Shown here one piece after another: positions 8,877 to 26,808 of a stretch of 30,061 bases of DNA. The translations under genes and the position numbers were made by a program. Positions within the stretch are counted from its first letter, which is position 1; each line of letters opens with the position of its first letter. The notes under the pieces are model-generated. The model ran no database searches and was not told the origin of the DNA. It was given only the letters and a program-made list of their open reading frames with translations. The DNA comes from a virus, in the IMG/VR virus record IMGVR_UViG_3300007734_000555, positions 1 through 30,061 of that record. One strand, 5' to 3'.

Positions 8877-9302
8877 TTACTCCAAACACTCCTTAACGCA
8901 AATATCAACACCTGGCAGACTTGAATAAACCTTCGTAACGTGGATGTTGATGATCTGCGAATCGTCATGGTAGACGACCCCGTTCATGCCATCTTCTACG
9001 CTTTTGAGGATATTACTTGCGTCAGGTTTCTTTGTTGGCTTCTCTGAGCCGTTATCAATGGCTTCTAATCTCTTTTTGGTGCATGACTTGGGGATTGGCA
9101 CTCGAATGTAAAGATACAGGCTTACAGGGGTTTCCAAAGGTTCTGAGCTGCCCATTGCCTCGATTGCAGAATCCTTGATTAAGGTTTCATAGGTTCTTGT
9201 CTTCTCAGGGGTGTAAGCGGTCACGTAATTGCCCCTCTTGACGTATCTAGCCCTTTGTTTGCCAACGGGGTTAGCGTCTACTTTGAATGTCACCATGAAC
9301 AT
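8877..9302 (-). CDS. rusA: RusA-like Holliday junction resolvase
   Basis: A 141-residue endonuclease that cuts branched DNA. It shows the RusA pattern PVGKQRARYV (12-21), KPDASNILKSVEDGMNG (92-108) and VVYHDDSQI (109-117). Compared with E. coli RusA (D70, D72, D91), D94 and D113/D114 are present but the middle acid is Ser96; many phage relatives show KPDxSN, so this may be tolerated. The ATG overlaps the stop of the HNH gene by one base (TAATG). Likely resolves recombination and replication intermediates before packaging. Confidence 0.88.
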   Translation of the reverse strand: MFMVTFKVDANPVGKQRARYVKRGNYVTAYTPEKTRTYETLIKDSAIEAMGSSEPLETPVSLYLYIRVPIPKSCTKKRLEAIDNGSEKPTKKPDASNILKSVEDGMNGVVYHDDSQIINIHVTKVYSSLPGVDICVKECLE

Positions 9303-9823
9303 TAGAATCTCCCAAAATCTTTATGCAGAAACATTGATGCGCTGCAATATGCCTGATGCGCTTCCTCTTTTGTGGGGAAAAGTCCAAGTGAATATATCTT
9401 GTCAAAACACCTAATTCTTGCCCTGAATTTTTTAGTTTGAGGGTGAAAAGTAACACCCTTTAATCCAATTGAACTATGCTTTCTTACTTTTGCGTTCCAA
9501 GTGTTTTGGTATTTATCGGCTTCTCTGAGATTTTCGATATTATTGTTTAATGGATTTCCATCAATGTGGTCAATAATCTTTGGGGCATATCCATGATGTA
9601 TAAAAAATACCAACTTATGCTTCATGTATGTTTTCTTATTTATTGATAAATGTAGATACCTATGTCCAGAGACTTGAGCCAAGCCTCCTTTCTTAACTCT
9701 TCTTGATGTTGGATTTTTCCAATAAAAATTACCATCTACATAGTCAAGATAGAAATGAACATCATCAACAGATAAATCCTTGTATAAAGATTTGTTGATT
9801 GTTTCGTCAGTTATAAACGTCAT
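9302..9823 (-). CDS. HNH homing endonuclease with AP2 domain
   Basis: 173 residues from ATG 9823, chosen because it overlaps the methyltransferase stop (ATGA); in-frame starts further upstream lie inside that gene. An HNH core (MKHKLVFFIHHGYAP, then IDHIDGNPLNNNIENLREA) is followed by an AP2 DNA-binding domain (LKGVTFHPQTKKFRARI, YSLGLFPTKEEAHQAYC). This two-domain form is typical of selfish phage endonucleases. It sits between methyltransferase and RusA genes and is joined to both by overlaps, so it inserted without breaking translation. The coding is AT-richer than its neighbours. Confidence 0.9.
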   Translation of the reverse strand: MTFITDETINKSLYKDLSVDDVHFYLDYVDGNFYWKNPTSRRVKKGGLAQVSGHRYLHLSINKKTYMKHKLVFFIHHGYAPKIIDHIDGNPLNNNIENLREADKYQNTWNAKVRKHSSIGLKGVTFHPQTKKFRARIRCFDKIYSLGLFPTKEEAHQAYCSASMFLHKDFGRF

Positions 9824-10734
9824 TTCAAGATTCTCCATGCGGTTGCCGCGCATAATGGGACCTGCCCATTCCCAATGGCTTTAAGTCTGTCCACTCTAGC
9901 GGCCACCCCATCAGCCACTCGACCCACGTTGGGTTCAGTTGACCACTGCTCCTGTCTACCGATTGACTCAACATAATTTGTTTGCCAATTTTGATTCGTC
10001 TTTGAATTGACGGATTGCTCATGTTGCCCCTGTCCCGATTGTCGGATGCTTGTGGAGTCGGAAACCACAGAACTACCGTTCCCAATCCTGGCGAATCCCT
10101 CTTGAATTCCGATGGACTCCCCTTCTCGTTTGAATTGTGGCAAGTTGGTGTAGGCCACATTTCTTTTCGTTTTTTCAATGCTTTCCTGCTGTTGCTCCCA
10201 CCGTCCAATCCTGTCGTGTTGGGTGTGTGAAAGTAGTCCACGCCATTTGGCACAAATCCAGATTCTGTCCCTCTGATGGTTTGCTCCAACGTCCGCTGCT
10301 CCCAGCACTCCCCATCTCGCATCAAACCCCATTGAGGCCAGGTCTCCGAGAACTCGTCCAAGTCCCCTAGAAGTGAGCATTGGTGAGTTTTCCACGAACA
10401 CGAACTTGGGTCGTACTTCGTGAATGATCCTCGCCATTTCTCCCCACATTGCGCTTCGCTCTCCTTCGATGCCAACTCCTTTTCCTGCAGCTGAGATGTC
10501 TTGGCATGGAAACCCGCCAGATATAACGTCAACAATTCCTCTCCAAGGTCTTCCGTCAAAGGTTTGTACGTCATCCCAAATCGGGAAAGGCGGGAGAAGC
10601 CCGTCATTTTGTCTGGCGCACAGTACGCTTGCGGGGTAATGCTCCCACTCGACTGCACAGACTGTTCTCCAACCAAGGAGGTGTCCTCCAAGAATGCCTC
10701 CACCAGCACCTGCGAATAAAGCCAACTCATTCAA
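9820..10734 (-). CDS. C5 cytosine DNA methyltransferase
   Basis: 304 residues with all core motifs: I LFAGAGGG (6-13), IV GGFPCQDIS with catalytic C77, VI ENSPML (115-120), VIII QRDRIW (154-159) and X AIGNGQVPLCAATAW near the end. The enzyme puts a methyl group on cytosine C5, probably to protect phage DNA from restriction. The part between motifs VIII and X is short, so target choice cannot be predicted. No ATG lies upstream of motif I; the frame must start at TTG 10734 or TTG 10725. The whole gene is overlapped by the +1 frame ORF 9825-10730. Confidence 0.85.
   Translation of the reverse strand: MNELALFAGAGGGILGGHLLGWRTVCAVEWEHYPASVLCARQNDGLLPPFPIWDDVQTFDGRPWRGIVDVISGGFPCQDISAAGKGVGIEGERSAMWGEMARIIHEVRPKFVFVENSPMLTSRGLGRVLGDLASMGFDARWGVLGAADVGANHQRDRIWICAKWRGLLSHTQHDRIGRWEQQQESIEKTKRNVAYTNLPQFKREGESIGIQEGFARIGNGSSVVSDSTSIRQSGQGQHEQSVNSKTNQNWQTNYVESIGRQEQWSTEPNVGRVADGVAARVDRLKAIGNGQVPLCAATAWRILK
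9825..10730 (-). CDS. Overprinted ORF inside the methyltransferase gene
   Basis: A 301-codon open frame, +1 relative to the methyltransferase and nested in it. Unlike that gene it begins with ATG, and this ATG overlaps the stop of the previous gene in ATGA, the coupling used across this genome. The product reads like a protein family that I recall from phage databases: GFHAKTSQLQEKE (73-85), KYDPSSCSWKTHQCSLLGD (105-123), ETWPQWGLMRDGECW (129-143), two WPTPT/FPTPQ elements (192, 223) and LNPTWVEWLMGWPLEW (265-280). Its function is unknown, and it is often labelled methyltransferase by proximity. It may be a true dual-coding gene; evidence is open-frame length, start site and family-like motifs. 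Confidence 0.55.
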   Translation of the reverse strand: MSWLYSQVLVEAFLEDTSLVGEQSVQSSGSITPQAYCAPDKMTGFSRLSRFGMTYKPLTEDLGEELLTLYLAGFHAKTSQLQEKELASKESEAQCGEKWRGSFTKYDPSSCSWKTHQCSLLGDLDEFSETWPQWGLMRDGECWEQRTLEQTIRGTESGFVPNGVDYFHTPNTTGLDGGSNSRKALKKRKEMWPTPTCHNSNEKGSPSEFKRDSPGLGTVVLWFPTPQASDNRDRGNMSNPSIQRRIKIGKQIMLSQSVDRSSGQLNPTWVEWLMGWPLEWTDLKPLGMGRSHYARQPHGES

Positions 10735-10939
10735 TTTGTCCTTCTTTCATTTGACGCATATAAAACCTGACCCGATCTCTTGCTCCTGAACCATAGATTC
10801 TCTCGCAACGCTCAAGCCTGGCACGAACAAAATCATTGTCTTTCAAGGATTCCCAAGTTCGGAATATCTCCCTTGCTTCGGCCTTCTCTAAAACTACTCT
10901 GTCTCCAACATTGGATATGTTTTTTCTCGAATACACCAT
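10727..10939 (-). CDS. Small phage protein (DUF7696-like)
   Basis: A 70-residue basic helical protein with EAREIFRTWESLKDNDFVRARLERCERIYGSG in its middle, a pattern I recall from a small phage family (possibly DUF7696). Its TGA overlaps the ATG of the overprinted ORF. It lies in the operon between the replication gene and the methyltransferase. Function unknown. Confidence 0.75.
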   Translation of the reverse strand: MVYSRKNISNVGDRVVLEKAEAREIFRTWESLKDNDFVRARLERCERIYGSGARDRVRFYMRQMKEGQIE

Positions 10940-24522: not shown

Positions 24523-26808
24523 TTATGTGGTTGTTTGATAGGTAATTGAACCTTGTATGCTTGTACTATTTGCAAAAACAGTCACGCTATTATTTATAGA
24601 TGTTGTTGATGCAGTTGTTCCAGAGAAAAACAGGCTAGAACTACCTGACCCTCCCCTAAGACAAAGTGAATAAACAGATGTTGCAATGCTGGCAAAATAT
24701 GTTAAGCATCCACTTACGTCATTTGCATAAGTTGGATTGTTTATTGCAAATGGCAATCCACTAATATTTGTTGTGCTTCCTGTTCCAAGAACATCTATGC
24801 CTATGTTAAATTGTAGAGTAACTATATTACCAACTTTTGTATAAGTACCCCACCTTCCAGTATAGGTAGCATTTCCACCAATATTAGGTGTCCAAGTTCC
24901 TTCCTCATAGTCATCTAGCGTATTAGCGTCTGATGATGCTGATTGAGTTGCGGGGAATGTAATGCCTGAACCATCTGTTGATGGCGTTGCAGTTCCTACT
25001 GCAATACAACCTGTAGCACCAATAGCCGCAAGTTGTGTAGTTCCTTGAATATTTGAACCTGTAAAGAATTTAAATCCTTTGTTACCCGCATGACTATTTG
25101 TAAATATCAACTCACTATTTGCACCCGCACTATCTCTATATATTAACGCCCCATAAGTCGCACCACCTAACTGTATGCTTCCACTATTGGCGTTATCCGA
25201 ATTTTTTAATATTGCCGTATATGCACCAACATTTCCCGCTGAACCACCTATTGTTGTTAGCGTACTACCATCAAAAGTTAGATTAGCAGATGCACCAAAT
25301 GCACCAGAATTGTTATATTGAATTTGTGTGTTTACACCCGCAGGTGTTCCACCACCAGAAGCTGCAATCGTAATTGCACCCGCAGAATTGGTAATCGTGA
25401 CGTTTGTTCCCGCAGTCAATGTTGCTTTAGTAAGCGTATTTCCTGTGCTATTACCAATTAACAGTTGACCATCTGTGTAGGAAGTCTGTCCTGTACCGCC
25501 ATTAGCTACTGGTAAAGCAGTACCTGAGTAGGTCATTGCCAATGTGCCAGATGTGGTAATTGGTGAGCCTGAGACACTAAAGACACTTGGGACTGTAGCC
25601 GCAACGCTAGTGACAGTTCCAGAGCCACCAGCAGAAGCTGCAATAGTTTGATTAGGCCATGTGCCAGTAACAGTTATGTTTGATCCCGCAACAATGCTAG
25701 GAGTTGTTGTTCCTGTTCCACCATTGGCAACAGGAAGTGTTCCAGTAACACCAGTAGACAAAGGCAAACCAGTTGCATTAGTCAACGTTGCGCTTGTTGG
25801 TGTTCCCAAGATAGGAGTAACTAGAGTAGGAGAAGTAGCAAATACATTAGCACCAGTTCCTGTTTCATCAGTCAAAGCTGCTAAAAGATTAGCAGAACTA
25901 AAAGAACCAAGAGATGTAGCATTACCAGTAGAAGTAATAGCACCAGTAAGGTTAGCATTTGTCGTTACATTACCCGCAGTCAAACCAGAAGCAGTACCTG
26001 TGATGTTTGTTCCAACCAAAGCGGAAGGAGTACCCAAAGCGGGTGTCACCAGTGTTGGCGAGTTTGACAACACTACATTACCAGTACCAGTAGAAGAAGT
26101 TACACCAGTACCACCATTTGCAACAGGCAGAGTGCCTGTAATGTCGGCAGTAGATAGGCTTACTGCATCCCATGAAGCATTTGTGCCATCAGTTTGTAGA
26201 TACTTGTTTGCGTTACCTGTTTGGCTAGGCAAAAGGTTATTCAGACCACCTGCGGCAGTAGAAGCACCCGTACCGCCATCAGCTACTGCTAAATCGGTAA
26301 TACCTGAGATTGAGCCACCAGTGATGGTTGCGCTAGAAGATGTGATTGGGCCTGTAACACCCGCAGTAGCCGTAACAGCACCTGTCAGAGTTGAAGTACC
26401 TGTGACTGCCAATGTAGTGCTTGCAGTGATTGCTTTAGCCGCCAAGGTGGTGTTATTGACTGTGGCAGTTCCTGTAGCCGCACCAATGTTTACAGCAGTA
26501 GCCGCACCAAATGCGTTTACAGTTGTAGATACAGTGTTAAAAACACCTTGTGTTGCAGTGCCAACAATGTCACCAGTTGTATCGTCAATTGTGACTGCAC
26601 TGTTTTGAATGATCTTGCCAGTGGTTGAATCAAACCTAGCAATGGCGTTATCGGTGCTAGAAGCCGCACCATCCGTCTTAGTTGCAACAGCAATCTGAAT
26701 GTTATTAAATTCAGTATCAATCTCAGTACCTTTGACAATCTTTAAAGGATTGCCAGGCGATAGGTTATCTTTGGTAGCGAAATTGGTACTTTTTGTATAA
26801 TTTGACAA
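24523..26808 (-). CDS. Tail fibre / receptor-binding protein
   Basis: 761 residues. The N-terminus (FATKDNLSPGNPLKIVKGTE) is a virion-binding type. The shaft holds repeats of LPVANGGTG or VADGGTG (four copies) and SPTLVTPxLGTP (two copies), typical of phage fibre shafts. The end begins DDYEEGTWTPNIG and YTKVGNIVTLQF, a C-terminal head seen in receptor-binding tips. The start is TTG, supported by AAGGAG seven to eight bases upstream, in the end of the HNH gene. The long plus-strand ORF opposite the shaft is a shadow of repeats. Confidence 0.85.
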   Translation of the reverse strand: MSNYTKSTNFATKDNLSPGNPLKIVKGTEIDTEFNNIQIAVATKTDGAASSTDNAIARFDSTTGKIIQNSAVTIDDTTGDIVGTATQGVFNTVSTTVNAFGAATAVNIGAATGTATVNNTTLAAKAITASTTLAVTGTSTLTGAVTATAGVTGPITSSSATITGGSISGITDLAVADGGTGASTAAGGLNNLLPSQTGNANKYLQTDGTNASWDAVSLSTADITGTLPVANGGTGVTSSTGTGNVVLSNSPTLVTPALGTPSALVGTNITGTASGLTAGNVTTNANLTGAITSTGNATSLGSFSSANLLAALTDETGTGANVFATSPTLVTPILGTPTSATLTNATGLPLSTGVTGTLPVANGGTGTTTPSIVAGSNITVTGTWPNQTIAASAGGSGTVTSVAATVPSVFSVSGSPITTSGTLAMTYSGTALPVANGGTGQTSYTDGQLLIGNSTGNTLTKATLTAGTNVTITNSAGAITIAASGGGTPAGVNTQIQYNNSGAFGASANLTFDGSTLTTIGGSAGNVGAYTAILKNSDNANSGSIQLGGATYGALIYRDSAGANSELIFTNSHAGNKGFKFFTGSNIQGTTQLAAIGATGCIAVGTATPSTDGSGITFPATQSASSDANTLDDYEEGTWTPNIGGNATYTGRWGTYTKVGNIVTLQFNIGIDVLGTGSTTNISGLPFAINNPTYANDVSGCLTYFASIATSVYSLCLRGGSGSSSLFFSGTTASTTSINNSVTVFANSTSIQGSITYQTTT

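Follow-up and report, generated by a model that had tools for sequence, protein, structure and literature searches.

A phage C5-cytosine DNA methyltransferase whose small domain is very likely encoded out of frame within the gene for its large domain

INTRODUCTION

Two-subunit members of the C5-methyltransferase family are known exceptions to the presence of motif IX on the same chain (PMC3404938). In M.AquI (CYCGRG), motifs I-VIII are in the larger subunit and motifs IX-X are in the smaller; in M.EcoHK31I (YGGCCR), the larger subunit holds motifs I-VIII, motif X, and the predicted TRD, and the smaller holds only motif IX (PMC3404938). The alpha gene of M.EcoHK31I reportedly contains the beta coding sequence in a different frame. 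A further alternate-frame gene is the ShiLan domain, an HNH endonuclease hidden out of frame within the methylase gene of an actinophage (PMC11855218).

Here, we analyzed a 30,061-base IMG/VR virus record (hereafter the window, meaning this whole stretch of DNA) that contains phage terminase, portal, and tail-fibre-like genes. One of its loci carries two open frames, alpha (the methylase frame) and beta (+1 relative to alpha). As in M.EcoHK31I, alpha has motifs I-VIII and X without IX, and motif IX is on a second polypeptide from an alternate, overlapping frame; this likeness is drawn by analogy, without sequence comparison, and the need for both polypeptides is inferred. Unlike M.EcoHK31I, the window beta (301 aa) covers the whole alpha gene, its start codon is only 4 nt away from that of alpha, and the recognition region lies, by homology, in beta, whereas the predicted TRD of M.EcoHK31I is in the large subunit (PMC3404938). 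M.AquI is similar in that a C5 methyltransferase is split between two genes, and its layout (alpha I-VIII, beta IX-X) is shared by loci L019, L051, L066, and L330 and by Renna12; the window differs in having motif X in alpha rather than in the smaller subunit and in its complete overlap. The ShiLan domain is likewise an alternate-frame gene within a phage DNA methylase gene, but it is an inserted homing element, whereas the window beta is unrelated, involves no insertion, and spans the whole gene. A ShiLan-type hidden HNH was rejected as the identity of beta on these grounds (no insertion, and beta is not an HNH protein). The PHROGs v4 family phrog_1008 ('DNA methyltransferase') matches the window beta, Paenibacillus phage Shelly gp56, and, in single-chain actinophage methylases, the C-terminal half; its annotation gives no hint that many members come from a second frame within genes of the phrog_363 type. 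We regard the window pair as a further form of a known, rarely recognised two-subunit kind, in a family that is very widespread.

RESULTS

Two full-length frames in the same DNA

Alpha and beta share the same DNA stretch of ~0.9 kb, and each is open over its full length in translation (Table 1). An earlier note, made from the sequence alone, had claimed that a full-length methyltransferase and a 301-codon +1 frame share this DNA, and its coordinates, starts, and motifs held. Its claim that beta has an ATG coupled through ATGA to the gene before also held, the ATG overlapping the TGA of the preceding gene at 10727-10730. The claim that the methyltransferase must start at TTG is true of the window, but TTG is a local choice, and ATG, GTG, and TTG vary among relatives. 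The part of beta overprinted on alpha is its N-terminal ~160 residues, whereas its C-terminal half comprises the target-recognition region and motif IX.

Table 1. Positions of the two frames and their elements in the window
Feature	Position	Strand	Remarks
Alpha, putative C5-cytosine methyltransferase large-domain subunit	9820..10734	-	304 aa; TTG start (10732-10734); motifs I-VIII and X, without IX
Beta, second open frame	9825..10730	-	301 aa; ATG start (10728-10730); +1 relative to alpha
Alpha motif IV with catalytic Cys (GFPCQDIS)	10492..10515	-	From translations; the same DNA gives the FHAKTS stretch in beta
Alpha motif X (GNGQVPLCAATAW)	9835..9873	-	From translation
Beta residues 190-228, PTP repeats (WPTPT...FPTPQASD)	10047..10163	-	Like the in-frame VIII-IX region of single-chain actinophage methylases
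Beta residues 265-283, motif IX (LNPTWVEWLMGWPLEWTDL)	9882..9938	-	hhalign against single-chain methylases
Shared initiation region, AAGGA-CAAA-TTG-A-ATG	10728..10743	-	From sequence; one Shine-Dalgarno-like site would serve alpha TTG and beta ATG

A gene for an HNH endonuclease with an AP2-type domain (window 9302-9853, minus strand) overlaps the 3' end of alpha and beta by ~30 bases and is followed by that of a RusA-like resolvase. Elsewhere in the window, a 315-aa open frame (25661-26608, plus strand) lies antisense to a 761-aa tail-fibre-like gene (24523-26808, minus strand).

The alpha TTG is preceded by AAGGA and lies 4 nt upstream of the beta ATG. Among 113 non-redundant relatives, codon 1 of alpha was ATG in 47, TTG in 21, and GTG in 17, and the remaining 28 had the alpha start 3-12 codons upstream (22) or three codons downstream (6). 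Two starts 4 nt apart, (A/G/T)TGAATG, were thus found in 85/113 loci. The first codon of alpha was variable and the beta ATG was invariant among relatives; codon 2 of alpha was AAT in 111/113 loci, as the beta start ATG requires.

Alpha lacks motif IX, and beta carries it

Alpha matched PF00145 (E = 1.3e-31) and phrog_363 (6.7e-67), and it carries motifs I, IV (PCQ), VI (EN), VIII, and X in one frame, which meets the criterion for a C5-cytosine DNA methyltransferase (PF00145). The PF00145 match stopped at profile position 228 of 324 on the window alpha, whereas it reached position 312 on the PFR1 homologue. Motif IX was not found in the alpha frame of window-type loci, leaving the PF00145 criterion of a same-chain motif IX unmet.

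Beta matched phrog_1008 (1.4e-33; residues 65-283 on profile positions 36-281 of 329). It matched no Pfam family, and comparison with PDB sequences gave nothing significant (best E = 0.18). The AlphaFold model of beta alone was poor (pLDDT 57.5, pTM 0.28); such a prediction could reflect a fold that depends on a partner, and it proves nothing.

In single-chain actinophage relatives (WillSterrel, PFR1, and others), motif IX (LNPAFPEWMMGWP, LSARFVEWMMGLP) and the PTP repeats are in the methylase frame, and the +1 frame is closed. The C-terminal pattern of beta, PTP repeats plus LNPxWVEWLMGxP, was related to these enzymes by several comparisons. The beta motif IX region aligned with that of single-chain methylases by hhalign profile comparison (96.7%, E = 4.6e-10), and the PTP region matched the WillSterrel methylase frame by BLASTP (1e-09). 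A profile of the beta PTP region matched 23 of 27 single-chain methylases (best 1.4e-15) and one of beta motif IX matched all 27, in both cases far above shuffled controls; neither profile matched the alpha frame of window-type loci. Because of this homology, we assigned the C-terminal half of beta to the small domain (recognition region and motif IX). The N-terminal ~160 residues have no counterpart in the single-chain enzymes, and their role is unexplained. A structural model of the PFR1-type single-chain enzyme (pTM 0.75) was closest to M.HhaI (Foldseek 5e-15); at the sequence level, alignment of motif IX of the single-chain relatives with that of M.HhaI (KLHPRECARVMGYPDSY) was weak. For the PFR1 enzyme itself (Propionibacterium phage PFR1 gp45; locus L183, 1465-2511), the annotated GTG start omits motif I, and the open frame upstream encodes TIGSLFTGYGGL.

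The second frame is open more often than chance allows

Searches of IMG/VR with either frame matched at least 600 stretches, nearly all of them relatives. The beta frame, +1 to the methylase, had no stop in 165/165 related sequences, including those gathered by the methylase frame alone, and the third frame of related sequences mostly had 14-26 stops. When the codons of the window alpha were permuted among synonyms, beta was open in 0/500 permutations, with 5.9 stops expected; over 107 loci, the mean probability of an open beta was 0.0013 and stops averaged 5.3. The reciprocal permutation, with the beta protein fixed and the alpha frame checked, was open in 0/500. The openness of the second frame is thus more than chance.

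Motifs IX and X are partitioned between the frames

Motifs IX and X were detected by pattern in 260 non-redundant loci, and in almost every locus each occurred once across the two frames. Where motif IX was in the +1 frame, that frame was open in 199/204 loci; where it was in the methylase frame, the +1 frame was open in 0/28. The window-type layout, with X in alpha and IX in beta, accounted for 195/260 loci. Both motifs were in alpha, with the +1 frame closed, in 27/260, and both were in beta, with alpha ending after motif VIII, in 10/260. In the remaining 28/260, one or both motifs were missed by the pattern, and most of those inspected carried variants; inspected loci without pattern motif IX mostly had a variant such as LNPMWVEWLMGWSLGW, as a rule in the +1 frame. 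Because beta was the query that yielded the GTDB loci and half of the window-type loci, a motif IX in beta is expected there. Loci gathered with methylase queries are an independent test, and they agreed with the partition. In L019, L051, and L066, which are close relatives of the window, motif X has shifted into the beta frame and is lost from alpha; Renna12 gp41/gp42 has the same layout (IX-X in beta).

Two loci showed further irregularities. In Mycobacterium phage GigiOuiOui (L177, 1636-2720), the N-terminal part of the methylase switches frame between motifs IV and VI and gp65 ends early; the beta-like gp66, with motifs IX and X, is intact, and alpha seems broken or in need of another mechanism. 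Paenibacillus polymyxa plasmid pAP1 (L178, 2022-2558) has two tandem copies of the motif IX region in the beta frame (LNPTWVECLMGFP, LNPAWVECLMGFP), the second past a stop, so that the recognition end appears to be duplicated.

Both frames are under purifying selection

Substitutions were sorted by their effect on alpha and on beta, with single-chain actinophage methylases and clusters of neighbouring genes as controls. In window-type loci, rates (x1e-4) were 2109 for changes synonymous in both frames, 636 for those synonymous in alpha only, 199 for those synonymous in beta only, and 59 for those changing both. In these loci, Dcm-synonymous changes that alter beta were suppressed ~3-fold. The sn/ss ratio was 0.30, versus 1.38 in single-chain actinophage methylases. 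In five neighbouring-gene clusters the ratio was 0.87-2.0, and in two others it was 0.53 and 0.29, on very few changes. Alpha-synonymous changes that would stop beta had a rate of 5e-4 in window-type loci (4/8,412 weighted opportunities) versus 256e-4 in single-chain methylases. Along the gene, sn/ss was 0.30 (codons 2-60), 0.32 (60-165), and 0.36 (165-end), and in the last segment, from motif VIII on, beta (sn 522) was constrained at least as much as alpha (ns 638). Both frames are under purifying selection. Chance or codon bias as the cause of the open beta frame was ruled out by the permutations, by the closed +1 frame of single-chain methylases, and by these rates.

Distribution of the nested layout

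The arrangement is present in hundreds of phages and bacteria and is mostly unannotated. The phages that have it are those of Acinetobacter, Pseudomonas, Salmonella, Klebsiella, Vibrio, cyanobacteria, Paenibacillus, and Bacteroides, and it also lies on Leptospira and Paenibacillus plasmids. Among genomes, a good number of which are metagenome bins, it was found under the labels Pseudomonadota, Spirochaetota, Planctomycetota, Verrucomicrobiota, Nitrospirota, Bacteroidota, Bacillota, and Actinomycetota, and in one labelled as a Poseidoniaceae archaeon. A locus resembling that of Salmonella phage S9-5 is present in four complete E. coli genomes.

DISCUSSION

The product of the locus is very likely an m5C DNA methyltransferase of two subunits, with the small domain read out of frame within the large-domain gene; translation, complex formation, and activity are inferred. 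What is shown is that both frames are open, that purifying selection acts on each of them, that alpha is without motif IX, and that beta has the motif IX and recognition region of single-chain homologues. In the proposed scheme, alpha would be the large catalytic domain (motifs I-VIII and X), and the completely overlapping +1 frame, beta, would supply the small domain, with its target-recognition region and its motif IX, plus an N-terminal extension overprinted on alpha. A single Shine-Dalgarno-like site would bring ribosomes to the start codons of both alpha and beta, which are 4 nt apart, and the products may assemble into one enzyme like M.EcoHK31I. The most likely role would be shielding phage DNA from restriction. 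Expression of both frames, the alpha-beta complex, its activity, and its role rest on inference only, as there are no expression, interaction, or activity data.

Several claims of the earlier note bear on this reading. Membership of beta in a common phage protein family was confirmed (phrog_1008). The suggestion that this family is an overprint of methyltransferase DNA held only for the N-terminal half, the C-terminal half being a piece of methyltransferase read in another frame. That beta possibly acts with the enzyme was supported and sharpened, in that beta is most likely the missing small domain, although there are no data on a complex. The note had held that many stops in homologous second frames, or a lack of independent family members, would refute it; no stops were seen in 165 sequences, and phrog_1008 and Shelly gp56 exist. 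Constraint on both frames, which it had proposed as a check, was found.

A referee might ask whether the second frame is merely an untranslated by-product of methyltransferase conservation and codon usage. Much of the beta similarity does sit over conserved motifs IV, VIII, and X, which alone would give some +1 similarity. This explanation is nevertheless all but excluded: permutation yields 5.3 stops on average, single-chain methylases are open in +1 in 0/28 cases, sn/ss is 0.30 versus 1.38, alpha-synonymous stop-making changes are nearly absent, the start ATG of beta does not vary, and homologues of its C-terminal half exist in a different frame context.

Beta might instead be translated and have a separate function, for example as a regulator or anti-restriction protein, without being a methyltransferase subunit. 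Overprinted proteins often serve accessory roles; nothing in methylases corresponds to the N-terminal half of beta, and beta has no Pfam match. We find this highly improbable, since beta holds exactly what alpha misses and each of motifs IX and X is present a single time across the two frames, in three layouts that are interchangeable. Also very improbable is a programmed +1 frameshift after motif VIII that joins the N-terminal part of alpha to the C-terminal half of beta in one chain. Such a shift would fit the +1 position of beta throughout, and the split genes of actinophages (Renna12 gp41/gp42) are readable in this way. Against it, beta begins at an invariant ATG of its own next to the alpha start, selection acts on the N-terminal 160 codons of beta (sn/ss 0.30-0.32), for which a late frameshift would have no use, and alpha retains motif X in 195 loci, which a fusion would skip.

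Returning to the nested two-subunit enzyme, a bolder reading that we consider likely is that m5C methyltransferases with the small domain in the +1 frame of the catalytic domain form a large class, mostly unrecognised, that extends over phages, bacteria, and perhaps archaea. Changes of frame would have taken lineages from one layout to another among the fused, the AquI-like, and the nested, and many database 'DNA cytosine methyltransferases' would be half enzymes. If the two-subunit reading is true, these loci would rank, in length and in spread, among the foremost same-strand dual-coding gene pairs known outside small viruses. The dual coding would have a clear reason, in that the two frames supply the two domains of a single enzyme from the same DNA. 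The reading would also account for the absence of motif IX in many phage 'Dcm' proteins and warn that a methylase tested from one frame alone may prove inactive. The three layouts offer a natural series for the study of gene splitting and re-fusion through frame changes.

An account of the nested pair as a widespread phage family was not found in the literature searched, which did not cover most subscription journals. Annotators have spotted single cases, such as the beta homologue Shelly gp56, annotated 'g55 internal gene'. The two-subunit reading would also correct annotations that call only one frame, whichever it is. Public records of four loci (L182, 1409-2575; L166, 2001-2729; L174, 1893-2573; L167, 392-652) annotate the beta frame only. 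In Alfacinha3, the beta frame (gp46) is named 'cytosine-specific methyltransferase', others are called hypothetical, and the real methyltransferase frame is unannotated.
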